A stretch of DNA of 40,155 nt from Wenjunlia tyrosinilytica (GTDB taxonomy: Bacteria; Actinomycetota; Actinomycetes; Streptomycetales; Streptomycetaceae): positions 1 through 40,155 of the forward strand of contig NZ_BMMS01000045.1 of assembly GCF_014646055.1 (NCBI RefSeq), written 5' to 3'. Both the position numbers and the translations under genes were made by a program. Position 1 is the first letter of the stretch. Every line of letters begins with the position of its first letter. Positions 1 to 23,700 of this stretch are shown here, in pieces. The notes under the pieces were generated by a model, which saw nothing but the letters and a program-made list of their open reading frames with translations, was not told where the DNA came from and made no database searches.

Positions 1-3000
1 GTGGGCCGTTGGCTGCCGGACGGGACGTTGGAGTTCGTGGGACGCAATGATTTCCAGGTCAAGGTCCGGGGTTACCGGATCGAGCTCGGCGAGATCGAGG
101 CCCGACTGCTGGAGATCGACGCCGTCCGGGAAGCCGTCGTGGTGGCGCACGGTGATCGCCTCGACGCCTACTACGTGCCCGACAGCAGCATCGGGGTCGA
201 AACGCTGCGCGATGCGCTGAGTGAGGTCCTTCCTTCCTACATGGTGCCGTCGGCGTTTGTCGCGCTGGAGTCGCTGCCGTTGACCCCGAACGGGAAGGTG
301 GACCGGGACAAGCTTCCGGTGCCGGACGGTGGCGCGGTGGTGGCCCGCGGCTACCGGGCCCCGGTGGGTGTGGTGGAGGAGGTGCTGGCCGGGATCTGGT
401 CGGACCTGCTGAATGTGGAGCGCGTCGGGCGCGACGATGACTTCTTCGAACTCGGCGGGCACTCCCTGCTCGCGGTCTCGCTGGTGGAGCGGATGCGGCA
501 GGCCGGGCTGTCGTGTGATGTGCGGGCGGTGTTCACCACCCCCACCGTTGCCGGACTGGCCGCGGCGGTCGCGGCCGGAGGCGGCGCCGAGGTGTCGGTG
601 CCGCCGAACGCGATTCCGGCGGACGCCGATGTGATCACGCCGGGGATGCTGCCGCTGGTGGATCTGACCGAGGAACAGATCACCAAGGTGGTCGCCTCGG
701 TGTCCGGTGGCGCGGGCAACGTGCAGGACATCTACCCGCTCGCCCCGTTGCAGGAAGGCTTCCTCTTCCACCACGCGATGCACGAGGACGGCGACCCGTA
801 CTTGCTGTCCTTCCTGCTCACCATGGACACCCGGGCCGCGGTGGACCAATTCACGGCCGCGGTGCAGTCTGTTCTGGACCGGCACGACATCCTGCGTACG
901 TCGGTGGCGTGGGACGGCCTGCCTCGGCCGGTCCAGGTGGTCTGGCGACACGCCGCCCTGCCCGTGGAGGAGCTGTCGCTCGACGGGGCCGTCGATGCCG
1001 CCGCCGAGCTGCAGGCCAGGTTCGAGCCCCGGCACTACCGACTTGACCTGGGAACCGCGCCACTGCTGCGGGTGGCCACGGCGTACGACGAGCCGAACGA
1101 GCGGTGGCTGTTGCTGGTGCTGATGCATCATCTGGTCGGCGACCACACCACATTGGATGTGATGCGGGAGGAGATTCGTGCCCTGCTGACCGGTCGGGCC
1201 GGTGCGTTGCCGGAGCCGGTGCCGTACCGCAACGTGGTGGGCCAAGCCGTGCTGGGTACAACCCAGCAGGAGCACGAGGAGTTCTTCACCGAGCTGCTCG
1301 GCGATGTCGACGAGTCGACAGCGCCGTACGGCCTGCTCGACGTCCGCGGTGACGGCACCCGTATGGCCACGGTCTGCGTCGAGCTCGACCCGGCGGTGGC
1401 CCGGTCCCTGCGCGAACAGGCACACCAGCGGGGCGTGTCCCCGGCGAGCGTGTGCCACCTCGCCTGGGGCCTGGCGCTGTCGCGGCTGACCGGCCGCTCG
1501 GATGTCGTGTTCGGCACGGGGCTGTTCGGCCGACTGAGTGGCGGCGACGGGGCGGACCGCGGTATCGGCCTGTTCATCAACACCCTGCCGGTGCGGATCG
1601 CGGTCGGCACGGCGAGCGCGGCGGACGCCGTACGAGGGACCCATCACCTGCTCGCCGACCTGCTGGCGCACGAGCATGCCCCCCTGATGGTGGCGCAGCG
1701 GTGCAGCCGCGTCGCCGCCCCGGCGCCGCTGTTCACCAGCCTGCTCGTCTACCGGCACAGCCCTGTGACGGCCGCCGAACCGGACACCGAGGCGACGCCA
1801 TGGTCAGGTATGCAGGTGCTGCAGGCCGACGAGCGCACCACGTACCCGGTCGACGTTACGGTGGACGACCTCGGCGAGGGCTTCGTTCTGACTGTGAAGG
1901 TGGCCGAGCCGGTCGACCCGGAGCGGGTGTGCGCGCTGTTCGGCAGCGCCCTGACGACCGTGACCGAGGCCTTGGAGCGGGCGCCCGGAACCCCGGTACG
2001 GGACTTGGACGTCCTGCCTGCCGACGAGCGCGACCTCGTGCTGACCGCCTTCCCGGAGGCGGTGGGCCGGCGGGTGTACATCCTCGACCCGCAGGACCGC
2101 CCGGCTCCTATCGGTGTGACCGGTGAGCTGGCTGTCGGTGAGCTGGCGGTCGGTGAGTTGGCTGTCGGTCAGCCCGGCGCCGGGCTGCGGCGCACCGGTG
2201 AGCACGGCCGGTGGCGGGCCGACGGAACCCTCGAAGTGGTGACTCCGGAGGGGGAGGCCGGGGACGTTCCCGGTCGCACTGGTCCGGCGGAGCCCGCGTA
2301 CGAGGCCCCGCGCGGAGAGGTCGAGGAGAAGATCGCGGAGATCTGGGCGCGGTTGCTCGACGTGCACCGCATCGGCCGCCACGACAGCTTCTTCGAGCGC
2401 GGTGGTCAGTCCCTGCTTGCGATCCAGGTCGGACTGGAGTGCAAGAGGGCGGGCCTGGACGTGACGGTCGCCGACTTGTTCGCGTACCCCCGGCTCAAGG
2501 ATCTCGCGCATGCCCTGGCCGGGCGGTCGGGGGCGGCCGGGCCGGCCGCCCTCGAGGACCGGGCCGTGGTGCTGCGCGCCGGGGACCGCCGCCGCGCGCC
2601 GCTGTTCCTGGTGCATGACGGCGACGGATACCTGCTCTACGGTCGGGCGCTGCTGCCGTATCTCGACGAGGACCAGCCGGTGTACGGCCTCCCGGTGGAC
2701 CCGGCCGGACCGGATGGCATGCGTACGGTCGAGGGCAGTGCGGCCCGGATGGTCCGGCTGATCCGTCAGGTGCAGCCGGAAGGGCCGTACAGGGTGGCCG
2801 GCTACTCCAGCGGCGGGACGCTGGCGTACGAGATCGGGGTCCAGTTGCGTGGCCTGGACCAGCGGGTGGACTTCGTCGGGCTGATCGACACCCACTTCCC
2901 AGGTGACGCCGGCTTCTTCGCCGACGTGCTGGACAGCGACGAGGGCTTCCTGCTGCGCATGTACGAGCGGCTGGCCCAGGGCGATCCGGACTGGGAGGCG

Positions 3001-4218
3001 AAGGTCCGCGGGCTCGCCGCGTCCGGACCGCACGACTTCACCGCGCTCGTCGAGGCCGTGGGGGCGGTGTGGCCCTCGGAGATGACGGTGACGGAGTTCC
3101 GGGCCGCGGTCTCTGCCATGCGGGCGATGCTGCGCGCCGAGACCGGGTACGTGGTCCAGCCCAGCACCGTCCCGGTGCACCTGTTCCGGGCCGCTGAGCC
3201 GACCGGCAGCGCCGAGCCGGACGAGATGCTCGGCTGGGGCCGGGTGCTCACTCCGCATACGGTCACTGTGACCACCGTCCCGGGCGATCACCAGACGATG
3301 CTGGTGGCGCCGAACCTGGACCGGTTCGGGGCGGATTTCGCGGCCGCGCTGCACAGTGTCGGCACGCCGCGGCGTGCAGACACGTATCAGCCGGTGGTGA
3401 CGCTCCAGCGCGGACGGCCCGGCACGCACCCGACGGTGTTCTGCGTGCCCGGTGCGGGCGCGGGCGTGGTCAGCTTCAGCGACCTGGTGTCCCGGCTGGG
3501 CCGGGACTGGACCGTGTACGGCCTGCAGCCGCGCGGCCTGGACGGCACGGACGTGCCGCACAGCAGCGTGACCGCGGCCGCCCGCGCCTACCTGGACGGG
3601 ATCGCGCGCACCGGTATCGGCGGACCGCTGCACCTGGTCGGCCACTCGTTCGGCGGCTGGGTGGCCTACGAGATGGCCACCATGCTGCGGGCCGAGGGCC
3701 GGGACGTGACGTTGACCATCGTCGACAGTGAGGTTCCCGATCCGGCGGGTGCGCCCGCCCGGCAACACAGCCATCTCCAGGTGCTCACCCGCTGGCTGGA
3801 GGTCTTCGAGCTGACTGTCGAGCAGCCGTTGGGCCTCACCGCCGAGCGGCTCGCGGCACAACCGCTGACCGCGCAGCTGACCGCGGTCCACGGTCGGCTG
3901 GTCCACTTCGGACTGGCCTCCGCCCGCACCACACCGAGCTACTTGCGAGGTCCGCTGACGACGTTCGCCGCCGCGGTCCGGACGACGTACACCCCCCGGC
4001 ACGCCTACCCGGGCCCGGTGCACATGGTGTTCGCCGACGATCCCCGCCAGACCGAAGCGGAGAACGACCTCGAGTGCGCCGAGCGGGAGCGGGGCTGGGC
4101 CGCCTGGATCGCGGATCTGCACGTCTCCCGGGCCCCCGGAAATCACATGACCACCCTCGATACGCCGCATGTCGACGCCATTGCCGCACTGCTGCGACAA
4201 CGCCGTACGGATTGCTGA
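1..4218 (+). CDS. NRPS, 3' part: A(end)-PCP-dual C/E-relic A-PCP-TE-TE
   Basis: This is the C-terminal part of a nonribosomal peptide synthetase; the reading frame is open at base 1, so the gene starts upstream. In order: the end of an A domain (A8 motif near residues 14-33, A10 with Lys99), a PCP (GGHSL, Ser155), and a condensation domain. The latter has HHxxxD at His376-His377...Asp381 and the extra N-terminal HH...GD signature at 257-265, typical of dual condensation/epimerization domains. Then comes only a scrap of an A domain (about 690-745), a second PCP (GGQSL, Ser804) and two thioesterases (Ser936 in GYSSG with His1097; Ser1216 in GHSFG with His1382). Both TE active sites look intact. 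As the final module it should release the peptide by hydrolysis or cyclisation. The last module cannot activate its own amino acid. The stop codon lies inside the first of the 11-nt repeats at 4214-4242. Product unknown. Confidence 0.95.
2122..2166 (+). repeat. Three 15-bp in-frame tandem repeats in the relic A domain
   Basis: Three consecutive 15-nt units (2122-2136, 2137-2151, 2152-2166) each encode Gly-Glu-Leu-Ala-Val (residues 708-722). The unit derives from the GEL motif that normally follows the A5 region of an A domain. The repeats mark the point where most of the domain is missing, so slippage or recombination at this spot is a likely part of how it was lost. Confidence 0.85.
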
Positions 4219-4338: not shown

Positions 4339-4358
4339 CTCCCGAAAGGACACGAGTG

Positions 4359-4568
4359 ATGATCAATGTATTCGACGATCCGGACGGTCAGTTCGTCGCC
4401 GTGGTGAACGCGGAGAATCAGCATTCGCTGTGGCCGACCGCCCTCGGCGTACCGGGCGGCTGGACGGTCGTGCACGGCCCGGACACCCGGCAGAACTGCC
4501 TCGACTACATCGAGGACAACTGGACCGACATGCGCCCGGCGAGTCTGATCCGGGAATCGGCCGGCTGA
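4359..4568 (+). CDS. MbtH-like protein
   Basis: A 69-residue protein of the MbtH family, small partners that bind NRPS adenylation domains and are often needed for their folding or activity. It shows the family features: start MINVFDDPDG, the QHSLWP segment, GGWTVVHGP and the C-terminal LDYIEDNWTDMRP. The ATG at 4359 is preferred over the GTG at 4356, because AAGGA sits 8 nt upstream of the ATG and the family begins at this methionine. It lies 140 bp after the NRPS and 31 bp before a free-standing A domain. It is probably co-transcribed with the latter and could serve both that enzyme and the NRPS. Confidence 0.95.
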   Translation: MINVFDDPDGQFVAVVNAENQHSLWPTALGVPGGWTVVHGPDTRQNCLDYIEDNWTDMRPASLIRESAG

Positions 4569-4599: not shown

Positions 4600-6126
4600 G
4601 TGACATCCATCGATCTGTCGGCCCGCACCGGCGGCCTGCACGACCTGGTGACCGCGCGGGCGCGGGCGGCGCCTGAGGCCGTGGCGGTCACGCTCGGCCC
4701 TGCGTCCATCAGCTACGGCGATCTGATCGATCGCGCGGAGCGGCTCGCCCGGCGCCTTCTTGAGGCCGGCGTCCGGCCGTGGGACTTCGTCGGGGTGGCG
4801 GTGGACCGCTCCCTCGACGCCGTCACCGGGCTCCTCGGCGTCCTGCTGTGCGGCGCCGCGTATGTGCCGATCGCTGCCGAACTGCCGGCCGAGCGGATCC
4901 GGGTGATCGCGGTCGACGCGAAGCTCGGCGTGGTGACCGGGTCCGGCGCCCCGGTCGCCGCCGCGATCCCGGCCCGGTGGATCCCGGCTGACGGGACCGG
5001 GCCGGCCGACGGGGACCTGCCGGACTCCGACCCGGACCGGCCCGCGTACGCCATCTTCACGTCCGGATCGACCGGGCGACCCAAGGGCGTGGTGGTCTCG
5101 CACCGGGCGGTGGTCGCGTCGACGCTGGCCCGGTTCGGCGTCTACCCCTACGACGACGTCACCTACCTGATGCTCGCGCCACTGACCATCGACGCCGCCG
5201 TCGCCGGCCTCTTCTTCACACTCGCCGCCGGCGGCCGGGTGGTGATACCCACCCCGGACGAGGTGCTCGACCCGCAGCTGCTCGCCGACCTGGTACGTGA
5301 CCGTGCGGTCAGCCACCTGGACGGCCTGCCGTCCCAGTACGCGGCACTGCTGCGCTTCCACCCCGAGTCGCTGACCGGCCTGCGGTGCGTCATCGCGGGC
5401 GGCGAGAGCCTGCACCACGCCGTGGTCCGCGAGCACCTGGCGGCCCTGCCCGACACCCTGCTGTTCAACGAGTACGGGCCGACCGAGGGCACCGTGTGGG
5501 CCACCGTGCACCGATGCACCTCGGCCGATACCGGCCCGCTGGTCCCGATCGGACGGCCGATCACCGGGGTCCGGGCCACTGTCCGAGCGGCCGACCTGAC
5601 CGCGGCCGAACCCGGTGCCCTCGGCGAGATCTACCTCGGCGGCGCCGGGCTGGCGTGGAGCTACCTCGGCCGGCCCGCCCTGACCGCGGAACGGTTCGTC
5701 GCCGACCCGGATCCCCGGTTCCCGGGCCGGCGGATGTACCGCACCGGCGACCTGGGCCATGTGACCCCGGACGGCGACCTGGTCTTCCAGGGCCGCGACG
5801 ACAACCTGGTCAAGGTCCGCGGCTTCCGCGTCGAACTCGGCGAGCTCGAGGCACATTTGCTGCAGCATCCGGATCTGGCGGACGCGGCCGTCGTGCCGCA
5901 CGCTGCCCCGACCGGCCTGCGCCTGGTCGCGGTGGTGGCGTTCGCCCCGGGCCGGTCCGTCGGCGGCCGGGCGCTGGCCGCCTTCCTGGCCGACCGGCTG
6001 CCCGCCTACATGCTGCCCACCCGCTGGCGGCAGGTGCCCGAGCTGCCGCGGACCGGCAACGGCAAGGTGGACCGGGCTCTGCTCCGCGCGTCCGCCACGA
6101 CGGTGGGCGCCGAACTGCCGACCTGA
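4600..6126 (+). CDS. Stand-alone amino acid adenylation domain
   Basis: A 508-residue free-standing AMP-forming adenylation enzyme with no carrier domain. It has A3 (TSGSTGRPKG), A5 (NEYGPTEG), A7 (YRTGDLG), A8 (GRDDNLVKVRGFRVELGELE) and A10 with its lysine (GNGKVDR). It is of amino-acid type: the substrate-pocket Asp is present in IDAAVAG. Aligning by eye to GrsA I read the pocket as D-A-A-G-I-G-E-V-W-K, which I cannot assign to a substrate. The GTG start at 4600 follows a GGAGGGAG site. Two jobs fit: loading in trans the last NRPS module, whose own A domain is a relic, or charging the free carrier protein at 8151-8405, with the aminoacyl thioester then oxidised by the neighbouring flavoenzymes. 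The gene converges on the ACAD operon across a hairpin-rich repeat block. Confidence 0.9.
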   Translation: MTSIDLSARTGGLHDLVTARARAAPEAVAVTLGPASISYGDLIDRAERLARRLLEAGVRPWDFVGVAVDRSLDAVTGLLGVLLCGAAYVPIAAELPAERIRVIAVDAKLGVVTGSGAPVAAAIPARWIPADGTGPADGDLPDSDPDRPAYAIFTSGSTGRPKGVVVSHRAVVASTLARFGVYPYDDVTYLMLAPLTIDAAVAGLFFTLAAGGRVVIPTPDEVLDPQLLADLVRDRAVSHLDGLPSQYAALLRFHPESLTGLRCVIAGGESLHHAVVREHLAALPDTLLFNEYGPTEGTVWATVHRCTSADTGPLVPIGRPITGVRATVRAADLTAAEPGALGEIYLGGAGLAWSYLGRPALTAERFVADPDPRFPGRRMYRTGDLGHVTPDGDLVFQGRDDNLVKVRGFRVELGELEAHLLQHPDLADAAVVPHAAPTGLRLVAVVAFAPGRSVGGRALAAFLADRLPAYMLPTRWRQVPELPRTGNGKVDRALLRASATTVGAELPT

Positions 6127-6356
6127 TCGGCGGGACCGGCCGTCGTGTGGGGACCCTGCTCGGCGGGACCCGCCGTCATGTGGGGATCCTGCTCGGCCGG
6201 ACGGCTGGTCCGGCCGTCTCGCGGGGATCCTGCTCGGCGGGATCCGCTGTCTCGTGGGGATCCTGCTCGGCCGGACGGCTGGTCCGGCCGTCTCGCGGGG
6301 ATCCCGCTCGGCGGGATCCGCTGTCTCGTGGGGATCCTGCTCGGCCGGACCGGCCG
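6127..6356. repeat. Hairpin-rich tandem repeat block between convergent genes
   Basis: The whole gap between the A-domain stop and the ACAD stop consists of two alternating related units: 33 nt (6156-6188, 6230-6262, 6304-6336) and 41 nt (6189-6229, 6263-6303), with partial copies at each edge. Units begin CTGCTCGGC and end GGGGATC or similar. The 41-nt unit contains a perfect stem, CGGCCGGAC/GTCCGGCCG, around a short loop. The 6230-6303 pair repeats a 74-nt composite almost exactly. The last partial copy runs into the 3' end of the ACAD gene. It may act as a bidirectional terminator or mRNA-end protector. Confidence 0.85.
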
Positions 6357-7082
6357 TCATGTGGAGGCGGGGGCGGCGGCCAGCCAGCGCTCCCCGGCCG
6401 CCTGCCACAGGCTGCGCGGGGATCCGCAGAGTTCGGTCAGGGCGTACGCGCCGCGGTAGCGTCGGACCACGTCCGGGTCGCTGGTGCCCGCCGCGCCGAA
6501 CGCTTGTACGAGTGTGTGCGCGCAGGTCAGCGCCGCTGCCACGCTCGCAGCCGCGGCAGCCGGTGCGGCATGGCCGGCCGGGCGGCCCCGGTCCTCGTAC
6601 CAGGCGGCGTGCCAGACCGCGATCCGGGCCAGGGCCAGGTCCAGGGCGGACTCGGCGAGGCGGTGCGAGGTGCCCTGGTACTCGATCTGCCGTCGGCCCG
6701 TGATCACCCGATCGGCCGCACGATCCTGCGCCACCTCCAGGCATTCGCGGCCGAGACCCACCCCGTAGGCCGCGCAGAGCAACAGGTCGCGGTCGGTCGT
6801 GGGGGTGGCCGGTTGGGCGCTCGGCACGACATCCGGCAGTTTCTCGCCGGGATGGGCGTCGAGGAACGCGAACGCCGCCCGTACCGTCGTGATGTCGTGG
6901 CAGCTTGCGCCCAGTTCCTCCAGCGCGAGGCACCACTCCACCAGCCCGCCGTCGGCCAGGGTCGCGGTGACACCGGCTTGCCGCAGAACCGCCCAGCCGG
7001 AGCCGGCAGGCGAAACCGCCAGCAGGGCGGTCCGCACGGCGCCAAGCAGATTCCGCTGGTCGTCGTCGAGATCCAGATTCAC
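6357..7082 (-). CDS. Short acyl-CoA-dehydrogenase-like protein lacking the middle domain
   Basis: A 241-residue protein with the N-terminal helical segment of the acyl-CoA dehydrogenase (ACAD) family (residues 1-75) followed, after a short linker, by a C-terminal helical bundle (about 100-240; GRRQIEYQGTSHRLAE, ALDLALARIAVWHAAW). The central beta-domain that covers FAD in normal ACADs (380-400 residues) appears absent. The GTG start overlaps the TGA of the full-size ACAD upstream by 4 nt (GTGA), so the two are translationally coupled. Actinobacteria are known to build heteromeric ACADs from paired subunits, so this is probably the non-catalytic partner of the 7079-8161 product. That pairing is inferred. 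The end of the gene merges with a repeat block. Confidence 0.75.
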   Translation of the reverse strand: MNLDLDDDQRNLLGAVRTALLAVSPAGSGWAVLRQAGVTATLADGGLVEWCLALEELGASCHDITTVRAAFAFLDAHPGEKLPDVVPSAQPATPTTDRDLLLCAAYGVGLGRECLEVAQDRAADRVITGRRQIEYQGTSHRLAESALDLALARIAVWHAAWYEDRGRPAGHAAPAAAAASVAAALTCAHTLVQAFGAAGTSDPDVVRRYRGAYALTELCGSPRSLWQAAGERWLAAAPAST

Positions 7083-8161
7083 CGTACGGCCCGTCCGATC
7101 GGGAAGTCAGTGGCGATGAGGTCGAGCTGCAACTCCTGGGGGCCGCCCGAGATGGTCAGCTCCGGGGCCTCGTCCACGGCCGCGCTGAGCTCCGGCGTCG
7201 GCGCCAGTTCCTCGCCCGCCCACCGGGCCACCGCCTGACCGGCCCGCGCGCACGCCAGCTTCGAGTACGCGATCAGGACCTCGTCGACGTCGAGGACGTC
7301 GGCCGTGTGCATGGCGTGGAACGCGAGCGCGCGTGCCCCGGCCACCTGGGCCCGCAGCCGGACCAGGTCGCCGGCCGCCGCCGCCCGGGCCGCCCGGGGC
7401 AGCCGGTGGAACTCCGTCTCGGTGGCGCGCATCCAGGACGTCGCCCGGGACAGGCACTCGAACCCGGCCCGCTCGAAACCGATCGTGGACGGCAGCAGCG
7501 ACCATCCGCGGTGCAGCGGCCCGACCAGGGCGTCCGGGCCCACGTAGGCGCCGTCGATCGTGACCTCGAAATAGGGGTCGCCGAGCGCCCGGGGCACCGG
7601 CGTCATCTGGATCGCCGGGTCGGTCAGGTCGAGCAGGAACAGGCTGATCCCGTCGTACCGGCTCCGGCCGGCCCGGGTCCGCGCCGAGCACAGGGCGATC
7701 CCGGACCGGTCGGTGCTCACGCTCCAGGTCTTGACGCCGGTGATCCGCCAGCCCCCGCTGTCCGGGGTGGCCGTGGCCCGGATCGCGGCCGAGTCGCTGC
7801 CGGCGCCCGGCTCGGACAGCAGGAGGCTGCCGAACAACCGGCCGGCCGCGATCTTGGGCAGCCAGCGGGCCTGCTGTTCCGCGCTGCCGAAGGCGAGCAG
7901 CGCGCCGCCCACGGCCTGCACCGTGACGATGTGGATCACATCCGGCAGGCCGCGGGCACCCATCCGCTCGGCGGCGGCCACATGGTGTGCCAGACTCAGC
8001 CCGCGCCCGCCGAACGCGGCCGGATAGTGCACGGCCAGCAGCCGCTCGGCGCCGAGCCGGGCGAACAGGGCCAGCGGATCCGTGCCGGGCGGCGCGGCGT
8101 CCAGCACGCGGTCCACCTCGTCGGCCAGCCGTGCCTGCGCGGCGTCGAGTTCAGGACGCAT
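7079..8161 (-). CDS. Acyl-CoA-dehydrogenase-like flavoprotein
   Basis: A 360-residue flavoprotein of the acyl-CoA dehydrogenase family. Visible are the N-terminal helical domain, the FAD/substrate segment SEPGAGSDSAA with the following WRITGVKTWSV, and the C-terminal TISGGPQELQ, which matches the conserved GGTxEIQ region. The ATG at 8161 lies inside the carrier-protein gene, whose stop it overlaps by 11 nt; its own stop overlaps the next gene by 4 nt. In such a context ACAD enzymes commonly oxidise acyl groups held on a carrier protein, as in pyrrole formation from prolyl-PCP. Here the substrate is probably an aminoacyl or acyl group on the adjacent PCP. It could also act on a fatty acyl chain, but no fatty acyl-AMP ligase is seen nearby. 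Confidence 0.85.
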   Translation of the reverse strand: MRPELDAAQARLADEVDRVLDAAPPGTDPLALFARLGAERLLAVHYPAAFGGRGLSLAHHVAAAERMGARGLPDVIHIVTVQAVGGALLAFGSAEQQARWLPKIAAGRLFGSLLLSEPGAGSDSAAIRATATPDSGGWRITGVKTWSVSTDRSGIALCSARTRAGRSRYDGISLFLLDLTDPAIQMTPVPRALGDPYFEVTIDGAYVGPDALVGPLHRGWSLLPSTIGFERAGFECLSRATSWMRATETEFHRLPRAARAAAAGDLVRLRAQVAGARALAFHAMHTADVLDVDEVLIAYSKLACARAGQAVARWAGEELAPTPELSAAVDEAPELTISGGPQELQLDLIATDFPIGRAVR

Positions 8162-8405
8162 GGCTGGCTTGCTCGGCCGTCGCCCGGACCTGCTCCACGG
8201 ACGCCGCGAGGTCGCGCAGCGTCGGGTTCGCGAAAATCTGTGCCACCCGCAGCCGCAGCCCGGTCTGCCGGGCGAGCCGGCCGATCAGATGCATCGCGGT
8301 GATGCTGTCCCCGCCGGCCGAGAAGAAGTCCTCGTCCATGGTCAGGTCGGGGCGGTCCAGCAATTCCCGGGCGAGCTCGAGCACAAGCGCCTGGTCGTCC
8401 ATCAT
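8151..8405 (-). CDS. Free-standing peptidyl/acyl carrier protein
   Basis: An 84-residue carrier protein with the phosphopantetheine site GGDSITAMHL (Ser34 counting from the first Met), preceded by EDFFSAGG and followed by the usual IFANPTLRDLA helix. There are two adjacent ATG codons (8405, 8402); GGAAGGA stands just ahead of both, and the second has the better spacing. The gene begins 12 nt after the hydrolase stop and ends inside the start of the ACAD gene. It probably carries the substrate that the flavoenzymes modify. The candidate loading enzyme is the A domain at 4600-6126. Confidence 0.92.
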   Translation of the reverse strand: MMDDQALVLELARELLDRPDLTMDEDFFSAGGDSITAMHLIGRLARQTGLRLRVAQIFANPTLRDLAASVEQVRATAEQASHAS

Positions 8406-8416
8406 CTGTCCTTCCG

Positions 8417-9115
8417 TCACGCGGCGGCAGCGTCGATCGCGGCCGACAGCAGGGCCTGGACCTGCGGGGATCCGAGCGGTCCTGTGGCGGCGTCGACGTG
8501 GCGTACCGTCGCCTCGGCCGGCTTGGCGAGCAGGGTGTCCAGGCCCGAGAGAGGTTTTCCGGCGATCACCAGCACCTGGTCCGGATCGGCCGGGCGGGCG
8601 GCCGAGCACGCGGTCAGGAACCGCAGCCAGGACCGGTAGCGGTCGAGCAGGCCGTCCACCATTTCGGACGCCGTCTCGTCAGAGCCGTATTGCTCGACCA
8701 GACCGTCACGGGCCTTGTTCAGCACCATCTCCCACTGCCCGAGGCCGCCCGCGGCGAACTCGTCATATCCGGGCGGGTCGCATGCCAGGGTGCGGCAGAG
8801 CTTGGTGAGCTCGAAATGAATGACTCCCGTGGTGATCGGATAAGGGTCGACCAGCACGGCGCGCGCCCCGGCCCGTTCGGCGAGATGCACCGCGAACGTC
8901 GCACCGGCGCAGTAGGCCAGCACCACCTCGGGCCGGTCCGGCCGGTCCTCGAGCAGATCGGCGGCCTGCCGCTCGAGGTCCAGCGGTCCGGCGACCTGCC
9001 CGACCAGCGGGTCGACCCGGGTCAGACGCCCGGAGGTGCCCGGTCCGGCCAGGAAGCCGAAATCCGCGGTGTTGCCACTACCGGGAAGATCCAGTGCGAG
9101 GACCTCGGTCAGCAT
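8417..9115 (-). CDS. Alpha/beta hydrolase with Cys in the nucleophile elbow
   Basis: A 232-residue alpha/beta-hydrolase or thioesterase-like protein. The beta-strand/elbow segment VVLAYCAGATFAVHLAERAG has Cys69 where such enzymes usually have Ser in GxSxG, and Ala replaces the first Gly. A candidate acid lies in VLVDPYP; the C-terminal His is less certain (VRHVD). The ATG at 9115 is preferred to the GTG at 9133 because GGAAAGG stands 9 nt upstream of it. First gene of a coupled four-gene operon with the PCP and two ACAD-like proteins. Possible roles are release or transfer of the modified group from the carrier, or acyltransfer through a cysteine. It is transcribed away from the five-copy 11-nt repeat at 9210-9261. 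Confidence 0.7.
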   Translation of the reverse strand: MLTEVLALDLPGSGNTADFGFLAGPGTSGRLTRVDPLVGQVAGPLDLERQAADLLEDRPDRPEVVLAYCAGATFAVHLAERAGARAVLVDPYPITTGVIHFELTKLCRTLACDPPGYDEFAAGGLGQWEMVLNKARDGLVEQYGSDETASEMVDGLLDRYRSWLRFLTACSAARPADPDQVLVIAGKPLSGLDTLLAKPAEATVRHVDAATGPLGSPQVQALLSAAIDAAAA

Positions 9116-9209
9116 GCGTCCGAGCCTTTCCACAGGGCAGCGAATGGAATCCTTTGTGCTTCATCATCGGCGTACGAATGTCATTCCGGGAAGGCTTCTC
9201 GGCGCTTTG

Positions 9210-9261
9210 ATCAGGACCCGGTCAGGCGCCGTTCAGCGGTTGGTCAGCGCTTACTCAGGCC
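9210..9261 (-). promoter_or_regulatory. Putative SARP box: five TCAG-core repeats at exact 11-nt period
   Basis: TCAG occurs at 9211, 9222, 9233, 9244 and 9255, five times with a perfect 11-nt period, embedded in related heptamers such as GTCAGGC, TTCAGCG, GTCAGCG and CTCAGGC with 4-nt spacers. Read on the minus strand (CTGA) this is the same motif and orientation, relative to its target, as the triple repeat before mbtH. It lies between the hydrolase operon (start 9115, minus) and the methyltransferase (start 9369, plus), and could control both. Direct heptamers once per helical turn are the known binding pattern of SARP regulators. A SARP gene lies 2.7 kb away. Confidence 0.65.
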
Positions 9262-9368
9262 TTGCCGAGAACCCATTCTGCGCCCTTGCCGAGAAATTTC
9301 CGGGCGCCCATTATGGAATGACCTCGCCCGCGCGGCCGGGCGGAATATGGCCGAGGAAAGGGCATCGG

Positions 9369-10535
9369 ATGGTCAGCGAATGGGAAACCCTGGTAGCCGG
9401 TGACCGCCAGACGAGGGTCGGAATCACCGGGCAGGTGCCGGACCCGGATCGACCCCACCTGTGGCCGTCGGTCGGCGAGTACCCCATCTATGACGCCTTC
9501 CTCTATCACGCCATGCTCGCCGACCAGCACCGCAACGCGGTGTTCCGCGACGCCGTCCTGCGGCAGGCGCCCGGCGCCACGGTGCTGGAGATCGGCTGCG
9601 GCCCCGACCTGCTCTGGTCGCTGTACGCCGCGGAGGCCGGCGCCGACCGGGTCGTCGCCATCGAGAGCCTGGACGACAGTGTCCGCCGGGCGGAGGAACT
9701 GGCCCGGGACCGGGCGCCGGGCCGGATCCGCGTGGTGGCGGGCCTGTCGACCGAGGTGACGCTCCCGGACCGAGCCAGCCTCTGCATCGCCGAGCTGGTC
9801 GGCTGCATCGGCGGCTCCGAAGGCATGGCCCGGGTGATCGAGGACGCCCGGCGCCGTCATCTGTGTCCGGGCGCACGGGTGGTGCCGCACCGGGTCCGTA
9901 CGATGGCCGCCGCGGTCTGCCTCGCCGACCTGATGCCCGACGGCCCCGGCGTGCCGGAGATCCTGGTGCCGTACGTGGAGTCGGTCTTCCGGGCGGCCGG
10001 TGGCTTCTTCGACCTGCGGATGTGCGTCGGTGGGGTCGGGTACGAAGCGATCCGCTCGACCACCGCGGCGGTCGAGGATCTGCGGTTCAACGAGGGCGAC
10101 TACCGGCAGGGCGGCGACCTGCGGCTGACCATGACCCGGCCGGGCGGGGTCGACGGGCTGCTGCTCTGGCTGGACCTGCAGGGCCGGGCCGGTGGCGAGC
10201 GTCTCGACACCCTGGCGACCCGGACCAGTTGGCTGCCCGTCTATGTGCCGCTGGTGGGTGCCGAGCCGATGACCCTCGACCCGGGCGACGTCATCGAGCT
10301 GCGGGTCACGTCCGAGCTCAGCGCCGACGGGATCCACCCGGACTACCGGTTCGCCGGGTCGGTCCGGCGCACCGACTGCCGGCGCATCCAGGTCGCGGCC
10401 GAGTCGCTCTACGCCGGATCGGCGTTCCGGCGGTCGCCGCTGCACGCGGCTCTGTTCAGCGCTGAGAAGCCGGTCGACCCTGACCGGGCGAGCCGGGCCC
10501 GGCGGCCGTCCGATCCGGCCGAAGTACGCCCGTAA
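9369..10535 (+). CDS. PRMT-like class I SAM-dependent methyltransferase
   Basis: A 388-residue methyltransferase. SAM motif I is VLEIGCGPD (residues 72-80), followed by the acidic end of the next strand (VVAIES). Ahead of it the YDAFLYHAMLADQHRNAVF segment resembles the protein arginine methyltransferase (PRMT) N-terminal signature. The CIAELVGCIGGSEGM stretch matches the PRMT double-E loop position, with one Glu kept early and one late. The C-terminal beta-rich half also fits PRMT architecture. The ATG at 9369 is chosen because GAGGAAAGGG precedes it; an upstream in-frame extension runs through the control region and looks non-coding. In this cluster it more likely N- or O-methylates a precursor or the peptide than a protein. 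It shares its upstream region with the hydrolase operon. Confidence 0.85.
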   Translation: MVSEWETLVAGDRQTRVGITGQVPDPDRPHLWPSVGEYPIYDAFLYHAMLADQHRNAVFRDAVLRQAPGATVLEIGCGPDLLWSLYAAEAGADRVVAIESLDDSVRRAEELARDRAPGRIRVVAGLSTEVTLPDRASLCIAELVGCIGGSEGMARVIEDARRRHLCPGARVVPHRVRTMAAAVCLADLMPDGPGVPEILVPYVESVFRAAGGFFDLRMCVGGVGYEAIRSTTAAVEDLRFNEGDYRQGGDLRLTMTRPGGVDGLLLWLDLQGRAGGERLDTLATRTSWLPVYVPLVGAEPMTLDPGDVIELRVTSELSADGIHPDYRFAGSVRRTDCRRIQVAAESLYAGSAFRRSPLHAALFSAEKPVDPDRASRARRPSDPAEVRP

Positions 10536-10674
10536 CCCCGTCGGATCCGGTCGGCCGTGAGGCCGTCCTCGAATGGACGCGTACCGTCGGGTCAGGCGGA
10601 CGTTCCGGCGGACCCGCTCGTATCGGGGACCACGTCGAAGCCGTTGATGCGCGCCGTGCCGCCGGCCAATCCCG

Positions 10675-11175
10675 GTGCTGACGCGGCGGGCTGCGGACGA
10701 CGTCGCCGCTGCCGTGCTGGCCCGGCAGGGCCGCACGCTGGCGACGGGTGCCGGCCGCGGGGGCAGAGGTGTGGCTGCGCGAGAGCGCCGACCTGTGCGC
10801 TGGCGGGTGGACGCGACCGGGCCGCGCTCGGCGCGGATGGTGCTCGGCGGCCCCGGCGCGCAGACCGTGCCGCACCGCGCACGGTGGCACGGTGCGGCAC
10901 GGCCCCGGGTACGACTCGACCGATGTCGGCGCGTCACCGACATCACCGCCGACCACCTCGGCCACGACGGGCGGCAGTCCATCGAGGACATCGCGTACGT
11001 CAAGGCGCTCCTCGCCGAGCGGGTGCGCGACGGCGGCACACTGGTGCTCGACGCCGACGACCCGTGTCTACCCGCGGTCGTCGACGCATCCAGCCGGCAG
11101 CCGTCGGCCGCGGACCGGATCCCGGCGGTCACCTCGGCCCAACTGGCCCGGCGTCCGCCGGTCAGGACCGGTTGA
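10675..11175 (+). pseudogene. Frameshifted fragment of a cyanophycin synthetase-like Mur ligase
   Basis: Pieces of a CphA-type Mur-ligase domain can be read in the expected order but in alternating frames: VLARQGRT (frame of 10675), then VWLRESADLCAGG (frame of 10748), then DATGPRSARMVL, then HGGTVRHGPGYDSTDVGA, then ITADHLGHDG, IAYVKALLAERV and LVLDADDP (frame of 10675 again). At least three frame changes are needed, the ATP-grasp half is missing, and the 3' end stops in the region shared with the SARP C-terminus. The gene is dead. Cyanophycin polymer synthesis has no obvious link to the NRPS, so this is probably a relic from before the cluster was assembled. Confidence 0.7.
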
Positions 11176-11988
11176 GGGCTGTCGGCCGGTCCTGTAGCTG
11201 TTGGTGACCGATTCCGGGTAGTGGTCCGGCCCGTTGCCCGTCAGCACCCGCTGGTGCATCGCGGCCAGTTCCGGGCTGGGGTCGAGCCCGAGCCCTTCGC
11301 GCAGGATCTGCCGGGCGGTGGTGAAGGTCTGCAGGGCATCGACCCGCCGGCCGACCATCATCAGCGCGACCATGAGGTGGATGTAGGCGGTCTCGCGGTA
11401 CGGATTGCTCGTGATGAGTTCCTCCAGCGGCGGAATCGCCTCGGTGTGGCGGCCCATGGCGATCAGCGCGGAGGCGTACTCCTGGGTGGCCTCCTCGTGC
11501 AGGCGTGACAGGCGGCGCCGGAACGCTGCCAGCCGCGGCCCGCAGTACACGCCGGTGAGCGGTCCGGAGCGCCACAACCGCAGCGCTGCGGCGAACTGGT
11601 CGGCTGTGTCCTCGATCGCGCCCCTGCTCAGCGCGCTGCGCGCCTGGGCGACGTGGTTCATGAACCGGTCCGCGTCGACCAGTTGCGGGTCCAGCCGCAG
11701 CATGTAATTGCCGTGCAAGTGCCGGATCTCTGGGTCGGCCACCCCGGCCGGAAACCGGATTGTCCGGCGGATGCGCGAGACGTAGACCTGGATCGTGTTC
11801 ACCGCGGTCTTTGGCGCGAACGCGCCCCAGACCTCGTCGATCAGGTCCGCGACCGCCACGTACGAGTTGTTGTGGGCGGCGAGTAACGCGAGCACCGTCT
11901 CCACCTGCGGGCTCAGCGATGCCTGGCTCGCGCCCTTGACCTCGAGGCCGCCCAGCAATTTGATGATCATAGCGTCGTCGCAACTCAT
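11068..11988 (-). CDS. SARP-family transcriptional activator
   Basis: A 306-residue regulator with an N-terminal OmpR-type winged helix (about residues 8-100; LSPQVETVLALLAAHNNSYV, DEVWGAFAPKTAVNTIQVYV) and a bacterial transcriptional activation domain (about 105-250; LRLDPQLVDADRF, LWRSGPLTGV, LHEEATQEYASALIAMG, PYRETAYIHLM, ILREGLGLDPSPEL). The length fits small Streptomyces antibiotic regulatory proteins without an NB-ARC region. The ATG at 11988 has GAGGGAAGG 9 nt upstream. The last 35 or so residues overlap the cyanophycin synthetase pseudogene and look extended, perhaps reading into foreign DNA. It is the likely pathway activator of the NRPS cluster, acting on the 11-nt-period repeats at 4214-4242 and 9210-9261. 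Confidence 0.92.
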   Translation of the reverse strand: MSCDDAMIIKLLGGLEVKGASQASLSPQVETVLALLAAHNNSYVAVADLIDEVWGAFAPKTAVNTIQVYVSRIRRTIRFPAGVADPEIRHLHGNYMLRLDPQLVDADRFMNHVAQARSALSRGAIEDTADQFAAALRLWRSGPLTGVYCGPRLAAFRRRLSRLHEEATQEYASALIAMGRHTEAIPPLEELITSNPYRETAYIHLMVALMMVGRRVDALQTFTTARQILREGLGLDPSPELAAMHQRVLTGNGPDHYPESVTNSYRTGRQPSTGPDRRTPGQLGRGDRRDPVRGRRLPAGCVDDRG

Positions 11989-12489
11989 GGATGCGATCCT
12001 TCCCTCGAGCGCTTGGCCAAGGCGGACCACCACTGAGAGCGTGGCCGCATGGGCTCTGCCAACTTGGAGTGCCGGGACCGGCCCGAGAGGCCGGGTCGTA
12101 CCCTGATCTCGTACCGGCCGGTCCCTCCGGCCCCGGGGGTTCTGCCCGGGGGTGGAAGTCGTCCGGGCGGCCTGGCCCGGCTCATTCCTCAGCTTTGCCC
12201 GTGGGGTGCGAGGGACTTCTCGGCGGGTGTCGCGCAGGATTCCTGATGGCTTGGTCAAGTCCCACCCTGCGTACCCGGATGGCTTGCTGCTCATATGCCG
12301 GAGCTTCTGGGATTGGCACGACGATACTCCTCGTGCTGCTGGTGGAGGGCTTCCCCTTTGCGGACCTCCACGACCCGTACTACGGAGAACCAGCCCCGAG
12401 GGGTTCAACTGCGTCGTCGACGCATTGCCGGCCCGGCGTCGCAGCCACCTCCGTTGGCGGGGTTGTGCCGGCAGACCGCACGGCAATCC

Positions 12490-12531
12490 GACCGGTCCGG
12501 CCGGGCGTTGCCGCGCCCGGCCGGACCGGTC
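12490..12531. terminator. Perfect 18-bp GC-rich stem-loop
   Basis: Arms 12490-12507 and 12514-12531 are perfectly complementary over 18 bp, GACCGGTCCGGCCGGGCG against its complement, with a 6-nt loop TTGCCG. No T-tract follows on either strand. It could act as a bidirectional factor-independent terminator of the actinomycete I-shaped type, shielding the SARP promoter side, or be a trace of a mobile element end. There is no intact gene immediately beside it. Confidence 0.6.
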
Positions 12532-12795
12532 TCGATGAGTCGACGGCGCTCGGGCACGGCTTCTCTCGCTGAGTCCGTCCAGCAGTGACGCATGACACAG
12601 CATCGGTCGGTGTCGCCGTGATGGTTCAGCCGCGTCGTCGCCGCCGACGATGGCCCGGTGCGCTCCCGTCACCCACGATGATCGCGGCGATCGTGCCGAG
12701 CCTTGGACGCCGGCCTGTGTCGGCACGGGAGGCGATGGTCACACTGCTTGTCCGGTCGGTCGGAGGGGCGGTGCGCACCAGCGGCTGTGACAGTG

Positions 12796-20244: not shown

Positions 20245-20742
20245 ACCTGGGCTCCCTGGACGGGGACGGCGAGAGCTGGACTCCGTGCGAACTGCCGGGC
20301 CCGGGCAGGGCGCAGCGCGCGGCGGCCGGGTCAGAGCTCTCGCTGAGCGCGTCACGTCCGAGAAGCATGCCGGAGAAGGTCAAGGGATGGGCGCCGCGCC
20401 AAGCCGCCGCCGACAGCGTGGCAACGAGCAGTGCCCATGTCAAGGGCTGATAGGAAACCTTCCTTCCAGTCTTCACTCGCGGTCGGCCACCGACTGGAAG
20501 AAGCACGTGTCGTCCGACTCGTGCCCCGTGGTCGCATCGCGGCGATGCCGGGTCGGGAGAGGTGGCTCACACGCACGTCAAGCGAGTGTGCGACAGGTGT
20601 AACCGTTCGCGACCGGCATGTGTGACGTGCACGCAATGGGTGCTCTCTACGGTCACACGTGCGTGGCCTGCCCACTGCTGGGCGCTTGCAGCCCGGCTGG
20701 TTGGAGTCCGCGCGCCGGATTGCGATTCGAGAGGGGCTGTCC
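20245..20742. promoter_or_regulatory. Divergent control region of phosphatase operon and nitrate reductase
   Basis: About 500 bp between divergent genes without a credible ORF. Contains a 9-bp perfect inverted repeat CTTCCAGTC (20463-20471) / GACTGGAAG (20492-20500), a minus-strand TTGACA at 20438-20443 that could be a -35 for the phosphatase operon, and separated GCACGTCA/TGACGTGC arms around 20572-20633 on the nitrate reductase side. No confident -10 elements or GlnR/PhoP boxes were recognised. Confidence 0.4.
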
Positions 20743-23700
20743 GTGACGGCACCAGGCCCACAGGCCCCGGCCGCGAGGGTGAAGACGGTCTGTTCGTACT
20801 GCGGTGTTGGCTGCGGGATGGTGCTCGAGGTCGGGGCGGACGCCGCCACCGGGCGGCGCACGGTGGTCAAGGCCTCGGGTGACAAATCCCACCCCGCGAA
20901 CTTCGGTCGGCTGTGCACCAAGGGTGCGACCAGTGCGGACATGCTGGCGGCCCCCGGCCGTCTGAGCACGGCCCTGGTGCGTGCGGATCGCGGCGCCGAG
21001 CCGGCTGCCACCGATGTGGACGAGGCGATCACGCGGACCGCGCGGCGTCTGCGGCGGATCCTCGACGAGCACGGTCCCGACGCGCTGTCGTTCTATGTGT
21101 CCGGCCAGATGACCCTGGAGGCGCAGTACTTGGCGAACAAGCTCGCCAAGGGATTCGTGCGTACCAACCAGATCGAGTCCAACTCCCGCCTGTGCATGGC
21201 CAGTGCGGGTAGCGGCTACAAGCTCTCGCTGGGCGCGGACGGGCCGCCCGGTTCGTACCAGGACTTCGAACACGCGGATGTCTTCTTCGTCATCGGTGCC
21301 AACATGGCCGACTGCCATCCGATCCTGTTCCTGCGGCTGATGGACCGGGTCAAGGCCGGAGCCAGGCTCATCGTGGTCGACCCCCGGCGCAGCGCCACCG
21401 CCGACAAGGCCGACCTGTTCCTGCAGATCAAACCGGGCACGGACCTCGCGCTGCTCAACGGGCTGCTGCACCTGCTGGTGGAGAACGGGCACACAGACGA
21501 GGAGTTCATTGCGGAGTTCACGGACGGCTGGGAGGCGATGCCCGCGTTCGCGGCGGACTACCCGCCCGCGAAGGTCGCCGAGATCACCGGCATCCCGGAG
21601 GCGGACATCCGGCAGGCGGCGCGGTGGATCGGCGAGGCCGGGGAGTGGATGAGCTGCTGGACGATGGGGCTCAACCAGAGCACCCACGGTACGTGGAACA
21701 CCAACGCCCTGTGCAACCTTCATCTGGCGACCGGTGCCATCTGCCGCCCGGGCAGCGGTCCGTTCTCCCTGACCGGCCAGCCCAACGCCATGGGCGGCCG
21801 CGAGATGGGCTACATGGGACCGGGACTGCCAGGGCAGCGGTCGGTGCTCGTCCCGCAGGACCGCGAGTTCACCGAGAACCTGTGGGGTCTGCCCCCGGGC
21901 ACCCTGCGCACCGACGCCGGTCAGGGAACGGTCGAGATGTTTGCCCGTATGGCCCAGGGCGGGATCAAGGCCTGCTGGATCATCTGCACCAACCCGGTCG
22001 CGTCGGTGGCCAATCGCAAGACGGTGATCGCGGGGCTGGAGGCCGCCGAGTTCGTCGTCACGCAGGACGTGTTCGGTGAGACGGAGTCCAACGCGTACGC
22101 CGATGTCGTTCTGCCCGCCGCCATGTGGGCCGAGACCGAGGGGGTGATGATCAACTCCGAGCGCGACCTCACTCTGCTCCAGCGGGCCGTCGAACCCGTG
22201 GGCCAGGCGCTGCCGGACTGGCAGATCATCGCGCGTGTCGCCTGCGAGATGGGCTTCGAGGACGCTTTCGGCTACACCTGCGCCGAAGAGGTCTTCGAGG
22301 AGATCAAGCTGGCGTGGAACCCGAAGACCGGGTACGACCTGCGGGGCGTTACCTACGAGAGGCTGCGCGGCACCCCGGTGCAGTGGCCGAGCGCATCCGA
22401 AGAGGGGAGCGATCGCAATCCGGTCCGCTACGTCAACGACGGTGTGAGCCAGTCCTTGGCCGATCGGGCCGACGGCACCCGGCCCCGGTTGTCGTTCCCG
22501 ACGGCGAACGGCCGCGCGTCCTTCTTTGCCCGCCCGCACATGCCCGCGGCCGAGCTGCCCGACGACGACTTCCCCTTCGTGCTGAACACCGGTCGGCTTC
22601 AGCACCAGTGGCACACGATGACCAAGACCGGCAAGGTCGCCAAGCTCAACAAGCTCAATCCCGGCCCCTTCGTGGAGATCCACCCGCGGGACGCGGAAGC
22701 GATGGGCATCGGTGAGGGCGACGACGTCGAGGTCGCATCCCGGCGTGGCCGAGCCGTGCTGCCGGCTGTCGTCACGGACCGGGTACGGCCGGGGAACTGC
22801 TTCGCTCCCTTCCACTGGAACGACTTGTTCGGCGAGTACCTCAGCGTCAACGCGGTCACCAATGACGCCGTCGACCCCGTCTCCTTCCAACCCGAGCTCA
22901 AGGCGTGCGCCGTCTCCTTGACCAAGCTGGCCGCCCCCGTGCGCAAGGTGGCCGCCGGGCCCGCGGCCGCACAGGTCACCTCCTCCGGCGGGCACACCGA
23001 TCCGGCTGAAACGCGTGAGAACGCGGACATCGCCGCTCTGCGCGCTCTCCTCGGTCTCGCGGACTTCGCGCCGCCCCCGTTGTCCGCCGACGAGCGGCGC
23101 TACCTGGCCGGCTTCCTCACCGGTCTGGGGACCGACCCGCAACCTTCCGCCGGATCCTGTGCCGTGCCGGTGCTCCCCGCCCGGGCACCCATCGCCACGG
23201 ACCGCGCCCTGTGGCTCAACGGCGTACTCGCCGGGATGTTCTCCCGCACCCACTCGGCACCGTGCGCGTCACCGAGCGCCGCAGGCCAGCCGCCGCACGA
23301 GGACGGCGGGCAGGCGCGGGAGGTCATCCTCCTGTGGGCCTCGCAGACCGGCAATGCCGAAGAGGTCGCCTCCGAGTCCGCACGTCGGCTGGCCGAGGCC
23401 GGCTGGCTCCCCAAAGTCGTCAGCATGGCCGACTGCACCCCGGGCTCCCTGCCGTCCGACGGGACCGTTCTCGTTGTCACCAGCACCTTCGGCGACGGCG
23501 AATCTCCGGACAACGGAGCCGGGTTCTGGGAGGCACTCTGCGACCCCTCACACCCCGGGATCGACGGCCTGCGGTATTCCGTACTGGCCCTCGGCGACTC
23601 CAGCTACGACGACTTCTGCGGCCACGGCCGCCGCATCGACCAGCGCCTCGGGGAGCTGGGCGCCACCCGGCTGGCCCCCCGCGCCGACTGCGAGCCCGAC

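Follow-up and report, generated by a model that had tools for sequence, protein, structure and literature searches.

Gene layout and recurrence of the cassette

The stretch of DNA analyzed here, hereafter the window, is the whole of contig NZ_BMMS01000045.1 from Wenjunlia tyrosinilytica and measures 40,155 nucleotides; the genome, of 8.5 Mb, comprises 172 contigs. The window starts inside a gene for a non-ribosomal peptide synthetase (NRPS). Reading of its open frames places four genes, all on the minus strand, within positions 6357–9115. The first encodes a thioesterase-fold protein of 232 amino acids (8417..9115) with nucleophile Cys69 in the motif AYCAGA, a probable aminoacyl shuttle referred to below as the Cys protein; its start ATG at 9115 agrees with the start found in Streptomyces himastatinicus. 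It is followed by a free-standing peptidyl carrier protein (PCP; 8151..8405, start at 8405 or 8402), recognized by PF00550 (E 5e-16) and carrying the phosphopantetheine motif GGDS. The last two genes encode proteins like acyl-CoA dehydrogenases (ACADs). ACAD1 (7079..8161, 360 amino acids, with the N-terminal, middle and C-terminal Pfam domains) looks like the alpha chain, comparable to Fic32, of a heteromeric flavin dehydrogenase, and ACAD2 (6357..7082, 241 amino acids) resembles the beta subunit Fic33 with the middle region lost, Pfam recognizing only its C-terminal domain.

An earlier note on this DNA, made from the sequence alone, had described the four genes as overlapping or nearly touching and as members of one pathway. 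The spacings agree with the first statement: an 11-bp gap separates the genes for the Cys protein and the PCP, whereas the PCP and ACAD1 genes share 11 bp and the ACAD1 and ACAD2 genes 4 bp. Such spacings point to one translationally coupled operon. A Shine-Dalgarno-like GGAAGG precedes the PCP gene, and third-position GC is 0.84–0.94 for three of the cassette genes and 0.76 across the over-long PCP frame. Convergent to this operon, on the plus strand, lie genes for an MbtH-like protein (4356..4568, identified by Pfam) and a free-standing adenylation (A) domain (4600..6126), both preceded by the end of the NRPS gene (1–4218). The interval between the convergent A-domain and ACAD2 genes is occupied by a 74-bp tandem repeat in three copies (92% matches; window 6122–6364), and the corresponding intergenic stretch of S. 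himastatinicus measures only about 70 bp.

A neighborhood search found the four genes again in S. himastatinicus ATCC 53653, arranged and oriented as in the window. At the protein level ACAD1 is 89% identical, ACAD2 81%, the Cys protein 84% and the PCP 95%. The surroundings are shared as well: A domain (89%), MbtH (90%), NRPS end (82%) and, at 9369..10535 on the plus strand of the window, a protein-arginine-methyltransferase (PRMT)-like protein conserved at 89% beside the cassette. The contig scan behind this find used only two peptide patterns and gave four loci, two of them this cassette. Recurrence of the genes at 81–95% identity in unchanged order and orientation indicates that their arrangement is not due to chance. 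The assignment of the four genes to one pathway, and carrier-bound oxidation as its theme, are backed by both sequence and neighborhood.

Two more distant versions were found. In genome G166 the genes are all co-directional, in the order MbtH-PCP fusion, Cys protein, A domain, PCP, ACAD1 and ACAD2, with identities to the window of 46% (Cys protein), 63% (A domain), 67% (PCP), 56% (ACAD1) and 48% (ACAD2). Streptomyces sp. rh34 has MbtH, A domain, PCP, ACAD1 and ACAD2 in this order, and its Cys protein (40% identity) is encoded on another contig behind an MbtH-PCP fusion. The PCP gene thus directly precedes that of ACAD1 in all four cassettes, and in G166 and rh34 the A domain comes directly before the PCP; this order is the strongest argument for assigning the free A domain of the window to the PCP of the cassette. 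The MbtH-carrier-domain fusions (L016 18379–18960 in G166; L085 8548–9060 in rh34) directly precede the gene for the Cys protein, and are possibly the acceptors of the shuttle in these two genomes. Among the genomes sampled the cassette is rare. A match to the Cys protein at E 0.001 occurred in 7 of 249 genomes of the family, being strong in only two, the window's own included; likewise, an ACAD1 more than 50% identical was present in 2 of 391 genomes of the order, again counting the window's own.

The two ACAD-like proteins

The closest solved chain to ACAD1 is 8hk0_A, with 199 bits over residues 6–354, and the next PDB chain reaches 88 bits. The Foldseek table gives the title of this entry as 'Crystal structure of Fic32-33 complex from Streptomyces ficellus NRRL 8067'. 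A protein of genome G075 (L092) matches chain C of 8hk0 residue for residue over 374 positions, and its gene stands directly behind that of the chain A homologue. The same arrangement extends through the family, as a partner reading frame follows ACAD1 in all of the 33 loci with enough sequence. These 33 pairs comprise 28 fetched loci (L049–L076) and those of the window, G166, S. himastatinicus, rh34 (L048 = L078, counted once) and Pseudosporangium; the ACAD1 search had listed 34 matches, for part of which loci were obtained. Six of the 33 loci served as seeds of the partner-frame test, and near-identical species occur among them, so that they do not amount to 33 independent events.

Motifs expected of a flavin adenine dinucleotide (FAD) site are divided between the two chains. 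The flavin-contact motif E-[P/A]-x-x-G-[S/T]-D, which reads SEPGAGSD in ACAD1 of the window, is present in 31 of the 33 ACAD1 sequences and in none of the 33 partners. Invariant in ACAD1 (33/33) are the C-terminal GxxE loop and the string Glu230-Arg231-x-Gly233; Glu230, part of GFER in the window, stands at the base position of isovaleryl-CoA dehydrogenase and prolyl-PCP dehydrogenases. On the partner side, Arg125 is found in 33 of 33 sequences, R-x-Q-[F/Y]-[G/D] in 26, and the glycine of Q-x-x-G in 31, the remaining two being gaps. ACAD2 of the window carries Arg125 and the stretch QAFGAAG, and reads RVITG where RQFG would be expected, which marks it as a diverged member of the partner family. 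It nonetheless passes PF00441 (E 4e-17), as do the eight further partners checked (9/9).

A structural model of ACAD2 (mean predicted local distance difference test score, pLDDT, 69) matched C-terminal domains of ACADs over residues about 93–239, best of all 7y0a_A (Z 17.3, root-mean-square deviation 2.4, 144 aligned); unrelated helical bundles can reach Z about 14, and the match is taken as support for the sequence result. In a phylogenetic tree the four window-type ACAD1 rows fell on one branch with support 94/98; only this grouping was used, two of the seven rows for paralogues from the window's own genome having very long branches and being probably in the wrong frame.

Combined, the partner frames at 33 of 33 loci and the division of FAD-site motifs between the chains suggest that ACAD1 and ACAD2 form one heteromeric enzyme, and the two look like halves of a relative of Fic32-33. 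The interaction that the earlier note had supposed between the two ACAD-like proteins is supported by this complementarity and by the solved heteromeric relative 8hk0. The short ACAD would accordingly be the partner subunit in a known heteromeric kind of ACAD and not an independent enzyme.

The note had also singled out ACAD2 for lacking the middle beta-domain. This domain is indeed absent, but in that respect ACAD2 is not special, since Pfam finds no such domain in the longer partners either: in the six tested, the middle region is present yet too degenerate to be recognized. What distinguishes the window type is length. Its partners have 237–276 amino acids (that of rh34 ends at 239 with its contig) and show an alignment gap over the middle region, whereas unfused partners outside this clade have 304–408 amino acids, and one (L053) has 496. 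The window clade has thus deleted a middle region that had degenerated before.

At four loci the partner continues into an A domain. The fusion is complete in L054/L098, and in L058, L060 and L063 the fetched sequence breaks off at the start of the A domain. The complete version joins ACAD2, A domain and thiolation (T) domain in one chain of 978 amino acids beside a thioesterase, and this fusion ties the ACAD pair family to carrier-bound substrates. In sequence L098 the fused frame spans 7540–10476 (with 4726–6741), behind ACAD1 and before the thioesterase; the protein that follows the thioesterase resembles, as judged by look, a copper amine oxidase. A T domain was present in the fetched flanks of 12 of 29 loci of the ACAD pair family (rh34 included) versus none of seven ordinary ACADs of the window's genome, and an A-type match in 17 of 29 versus two of seven, so that the T-domain result discriminates better.

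Adenylation domain, Cys protein and proposed acceptor module

The free A domain scores 365.8 bits against a cut-off of 317.4 for amino-acid adenylation (TIGR01733), and has Asp at the position that contacts the amino group. Sequence and neighborhood support its being of amino-acid type and the activator of the pathway, both put forward in the earlier note. The nine-residue specificity code of the window is DAADIGEVW plus an assumed K517, and DAAD[IV]GEVWK, with the last Lys assumed, describes all four cassettes, which vary only between Ile and Val; the code columns were calibrated on an A domain of rh34 taken by its code to be threonine-type.

Oxidation of a prolyl-PCP to pyrrole, which had been named as the known parallel, was rejected. 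The model for prolyl-PCP dehydrogenases of the RedW/PltE kind (NF045652) gave 61 bits against a cut-off of 650, and the A-domain code is presumably not proline-like. Prolyl dehydrogenation is thus not the best parallel for this cassette.

ACADs acting on fatty acyl thioesters are common, and ACAD-like enzymes of some lipopeptide clusters desaturate the acyl tail. The ACAD pair might likewise introduce an alpha,beta double bond into the fatty acyl tail of a lipopeptide while this is held on a carrier, the protein annotated as PCP being an acyl carrier. A lipopeptide is possible in S. himastatinicus, where the NRPS seems to begin with an AMP-ligase-like segment before its first condensation (C) domain. 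However, the ACAD pair stands directly behind an amino-acid A domain and its PCP in G166 and rh34, ACAD2 is fused to A and T domains in L098, and the A domain of the window exceeds the amino-acid cut-off and has Asp at the amino-group position, all of which makes a fatty acyl substrate rather improbable.

The Cys protein has no match in Pfam, NCBIfam or PHROGs, and its PDB matches are weak. Two rounds of profile search among the fetched loci collected 13 rows, the window included, all of them with Cys at the nucleophile position, aligned on the Ser of thioesterases. Compared with NRPS thioesterases, the profile of 13 rows gave a probability of 96% over 203 columns (P 1.9e-9). An ACAD profile used as control, which had only two rows, gave 0.1%, and a comparison with only four rows of the Cys protein gave 2.9%.

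The thioesterase His is absent from the four cassette members. No aligned column holds a His common to them, and the position where thioesterases usually have their acid is without Asp. The His column is reached by nine of the 13 rows, of which six (the four cassette members, L099 and L101) have no His and three have it. Loss of the thioesterase His throughout the family was accordingly rejected, L100, L102 and L015 retaining it within the motifs HADIL, HSDIL and HADLL, respectively. Domains of the A, C or T type were found in the fetched flank of five of the nine loci outside the cassettes (L011, L013, L014, L099 and L101), and not in that of L012, L015, L100 or L102; no NRPS domain at all was found in the fetched flanks of L100 and L102, where the gene adjoining the relative of the Cys protein resembles, by its look, that of a cytochrome P450. 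In L011 (G045, 1–3447, minus strand) a single open frame encodes the Cys domain fused to an A domain, with a T domain upstream in an overlapping frame; in L013 the Cys domain is flanked by T domains.

Retention of the Cys together with absence of the thioesterase His leads us to read the Cys protein as an aminoacyl shuttle. The earlier note had called it a Cys hydrolase; the missing His in the four cassette members makes an acyl shuttle the likelier reading. It could still act as an editing or releasing thioesterase, which frees the oxidized amino acid or clears a mis-loaded PCP while the terminal T domain is loaded in some other way. The fold, as supported by the profile comparison, and the His kept in three of the nine rows that reach its column speak for such a role, whereas the four cassette proteins, devoid of the His, of any common His and of the acidic Asp, do not fit it, nor does a terminal module that, lacking an A domain, could not activate a released acid again. 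We consider hydrolysis unlikely.

That terminal module lies at the end of the NRPS. Its order in the window is A(end)-T-C-[A remnant]-T-TE-TE, TE being thioesterase, with the C domain at 733..2031, a 59-residue remnant of a deleted A domain at 2062..2238, the terminal T domain, proposed to accept the shuttled aminoacyl group, at 2332..2514, and the tandem thioesterase domains at 2650..4185, all on the plus strand. The giant NRPS of S. himastatinicus (L091+L088+L083+L084, 18496–67276) has 13 A-bearing modules and the same A-less last module, 14 in all. Its A-domain codes resemble those of Val, Thr, Gly, Ala and Ser types, and one of the Thr-type domains contains an insertion that could represent an N-methyltransferase. 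An A-less C-T unit is present in G166 as well, and rh34 shows its A-less module only as a fragment at a contig end. One free A domain and one NRPS module without an A domain suggest the simplest accounting, namely that the former would supply the latter. Of the two products suggested by the earlier note, an unsaturated amino acid or a modified starter unit, the second is unlikely, since the A-less module (733–2514) is terminal and the oxidized residue would be the last one.

Further frames lie beyond the cassette. A seemingly partial frame at 10675–11175 resembles the middle domain of Mur ligases and cyanophycin synthetase (PF08245, TIGR02068), and the region 10475–11140, which covers most of it, has no DNA match in the S. 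himastatinicus locus. A BTAD-type (SARP-like) regulator is encoded near the cluster at 11068–12726, where 11141–12098 has 87% DNA identity to that locus. A molybdopterin oxidoreductase of 1438 amino acids fused to a flavodoxin/FAD/NAD reductase module (20659–24975) is apparently unrelated to the cassette.

Proposed pathway and known systems

Taken as a whole, the cassette probably makes a single non-standard residue on a carrier protein of its own, for delivery to the last module of the large NRPS. An alpha-amino acid would be activated by the free A domain, assisted by the MbtH-like protein, and loaded on the free holo-PCP. There ACAD1 and ACAD2, joined in a heteromeric flavoenzyme to whose FAD site both contribute, would oxidize it, Glu230 of ACAD1 taking the alpha proton while the beta hydride passes to FAD, to give a 2,3-dehydroaminoacyl-S-PCP or the product of an onward reaction. 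The Cys protein would accept this group on Cys69 and hand it to the T domain of the A-less terminal module, whose C domain would condense the shuttled residue before the thioesterase domains release the peptide. This scheme builds on sequence features, that is, on gene order, family membership, the motif split, a Cys without the thioesterase His, the A-less module and conservation, and from these we infer substrate type, reaction, direction of transfer and product.

Several observations tell against the scheme. The motif split is not absolute, as the R-x-Q-F-G string also occurs in two of the 33 ACAD1 sequences. ACAD1 does not have the classical C-terminal base, positions 338–339 being Ser/Ala and Ala/Gly/Ser, and the presumed role of Glu230 is by analogy with isovaleryl-CoA dehydrogenase. 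Tautomerization to an imine, and perhaps hydrolysis, would be the fate of a free amino acid dehydrogenated at the alpha,beta bond, so that the dehydro product must be trapped by something. Structure prediction for the Cys protein was poor (mean pLDDT 45, from a two-row alignment) and was not used, and the His present in three of the five distant relatives that reach its column implies that the family may include hydrolases. An A-domain-like match near an ACAD is not specific, given the two found among the seven controls. As for gene arrangement, the A-less unit of G166 lies about 23 kb from its cassette, the cassette pieces of rh34 are on separate contigs, and the window has no MbtH-PCP fusion, which means that the direct acceptor may differ between clusters.

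The ACAD pair could instead work on the assembly line, on a residue or peptide held by the terminal T domain, with the free PCP as a loading relay and an unmodified amino acid being shuttled. Precedents point that way: the Fic32-33 pair lies behind a C-A-T-TE module without an adjoining free PCP, and CaeB1, according to the available part of PMC8149447, acts on an NRPS module. The 11-bp overlap of the PCP and ACAD1 genes in the window and the position of the PCP gene directly before that of ACAD1 in the four cassettes speak for oxidation on the free PCP, and leave the assembly-line variant quite improbable.

As to the substrate, two acidic code positions (Asp278 and Glu322) and the neighboring PRMT-like gene, whose product has PRMT7 as its best PDB match (E 1e-10), hint at a basic amino acid, although this is a guess. 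The PRMT-like gene is present in the window and in S. himastatinicus, and was not found in 40 kb of G166 or in the rh34 locus searched; a text search of the open-access literature for arginine A-domain codes returned nothing. A more daring version, which we hold to be a long shot, is that arginine or another basic amino acid is activated, that the ACAD pair forms a 2,3-dehydroarginyl-type thioester to whose double bond the guanidine adds, and that the Cys shuttle without the His places the resulting cyclic guanidino residue last in a 14-residue peptide. In that case the cassette would arrive at such a residue by flavin-driven chemistry on a carrier.

Should delivery of a carrier-oxidized residue to the last NRPS module prove right, the cassette would be a portable module that activates, oxidizes and hands over a residue off the assembly line, into a module with a deleted A domain. 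It would link the Fic32-33 family of ACAD pairs, known structurally, to carrier-bound amino-acid oxidation, and would feature both a partner subunit reduced to little beyond the helical domain that holds FAD and a thioesterase fold in which the Cys is retained and the His is not. As S. himastatinicus ATCC 53653 has all the cassette genes, the product can be sought directly there. In the open-access literature searched, outside which most subscription journals lie, neither this combination, nor the shortened partner, nor such a Cys protein, nor a matching peptide of S. himastatinicus was found; the same search found no paper on the function of Fic32-33.

Among known systems, Fic32-33 of S. ficellus (8hk0) is the nearest for the ACAD pair. 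Its chain A is homologous to ACAD1 over nearly the full length, its partner forms chains C and D of the same solved entry, and its adjoining alpha and beta genes lie beside an NRPS module of C-A-T-TE order. In both systems only the C-terminal ACAD domain of the partner exceeds the Pfam cut-off. However, the Fic33-type partner (374–380 amino acids) retains the middle region in degenerate form, whereas the window partner has none, and no free PCP, free A domain or Cys protein directly adjoins the Fic32-33 genes. Two-gene heteromeric ACADs with split FAD sites are also known from steroid metabolism, as ChsE4-ChsE5 of mycobacteria and Tcur3481-Tcur3483 of Thermomonospora, which use steroid CoA thioesters. 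Entry 4x28 and chains of Tcur3483 were among the PDB matches of ACAD1; unlike the pair described here, both steroid subunits have about full ACAD length (361–407 residues).

For the reaction, a close comparison is with CaeB1 and ColB1 of caerulomycin and collismycin biosynthesis, the latter of which appeared as an ACAD-fold entry among the structural matches. As reported in the part of PMC8149447 available, CaeB1 dehydrogenates cysteinyl-S-PCP, so that these flavoproteins, like the pair proposed here, oxidize an alpha-aminoacyl (L-cysteinyl) thioester on a PCP. They differ in being single trans-acting proteins with a Glu base of their own, E372 in CaeB1, and in being brought to an NRPS module by a Ct domain, and neither a free PCP nor a shuttle is described in that part of the source. 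Desaturation of carrier-bound N-acyl-beta-alanine by BolQ has been proposed from gene deletion, as the accessible text of PMC7756342 states. A similar relay is that of AzsP-AzsQ-AzsF-AzsD in azaserine biosynthesis, where, according to the portion of PMC10445470 at hand, the substrate is attached to a free carrier by a free ligase, oxidized on it by an ACAD and moved to a second carrier by a transferase; there the substrate is succinyl-hydrazinoacetate, the ACAD is one protein, and the transferase is annotated as a 3-oxoacyl-ACP synthase instead of having a Cys thioesterase fold.

Shuttle-type features found in the cluster are the thioesterase fold, the Cys nucleophile and the A-less acceptor module. 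CmaE and SyrC use a Cys nucleophile, and the Cys protein is likened to them by these features. Together with LgnA, they resemble acyltransferases or thioesterases and ferry aminoacyl groups from one T domain to another, and clusters with LgnA-type shuttles contain extra C-T units (both from the part of PMC8748450 available). LgnA has a Ser-Asp-His triad (same source and extent), whereas the cassette protein has a Cys and no thioesterase His. Each step of the proposed pathway has a separate precedent elsewhere, and no description of their combination was found in the open-access literature searched.

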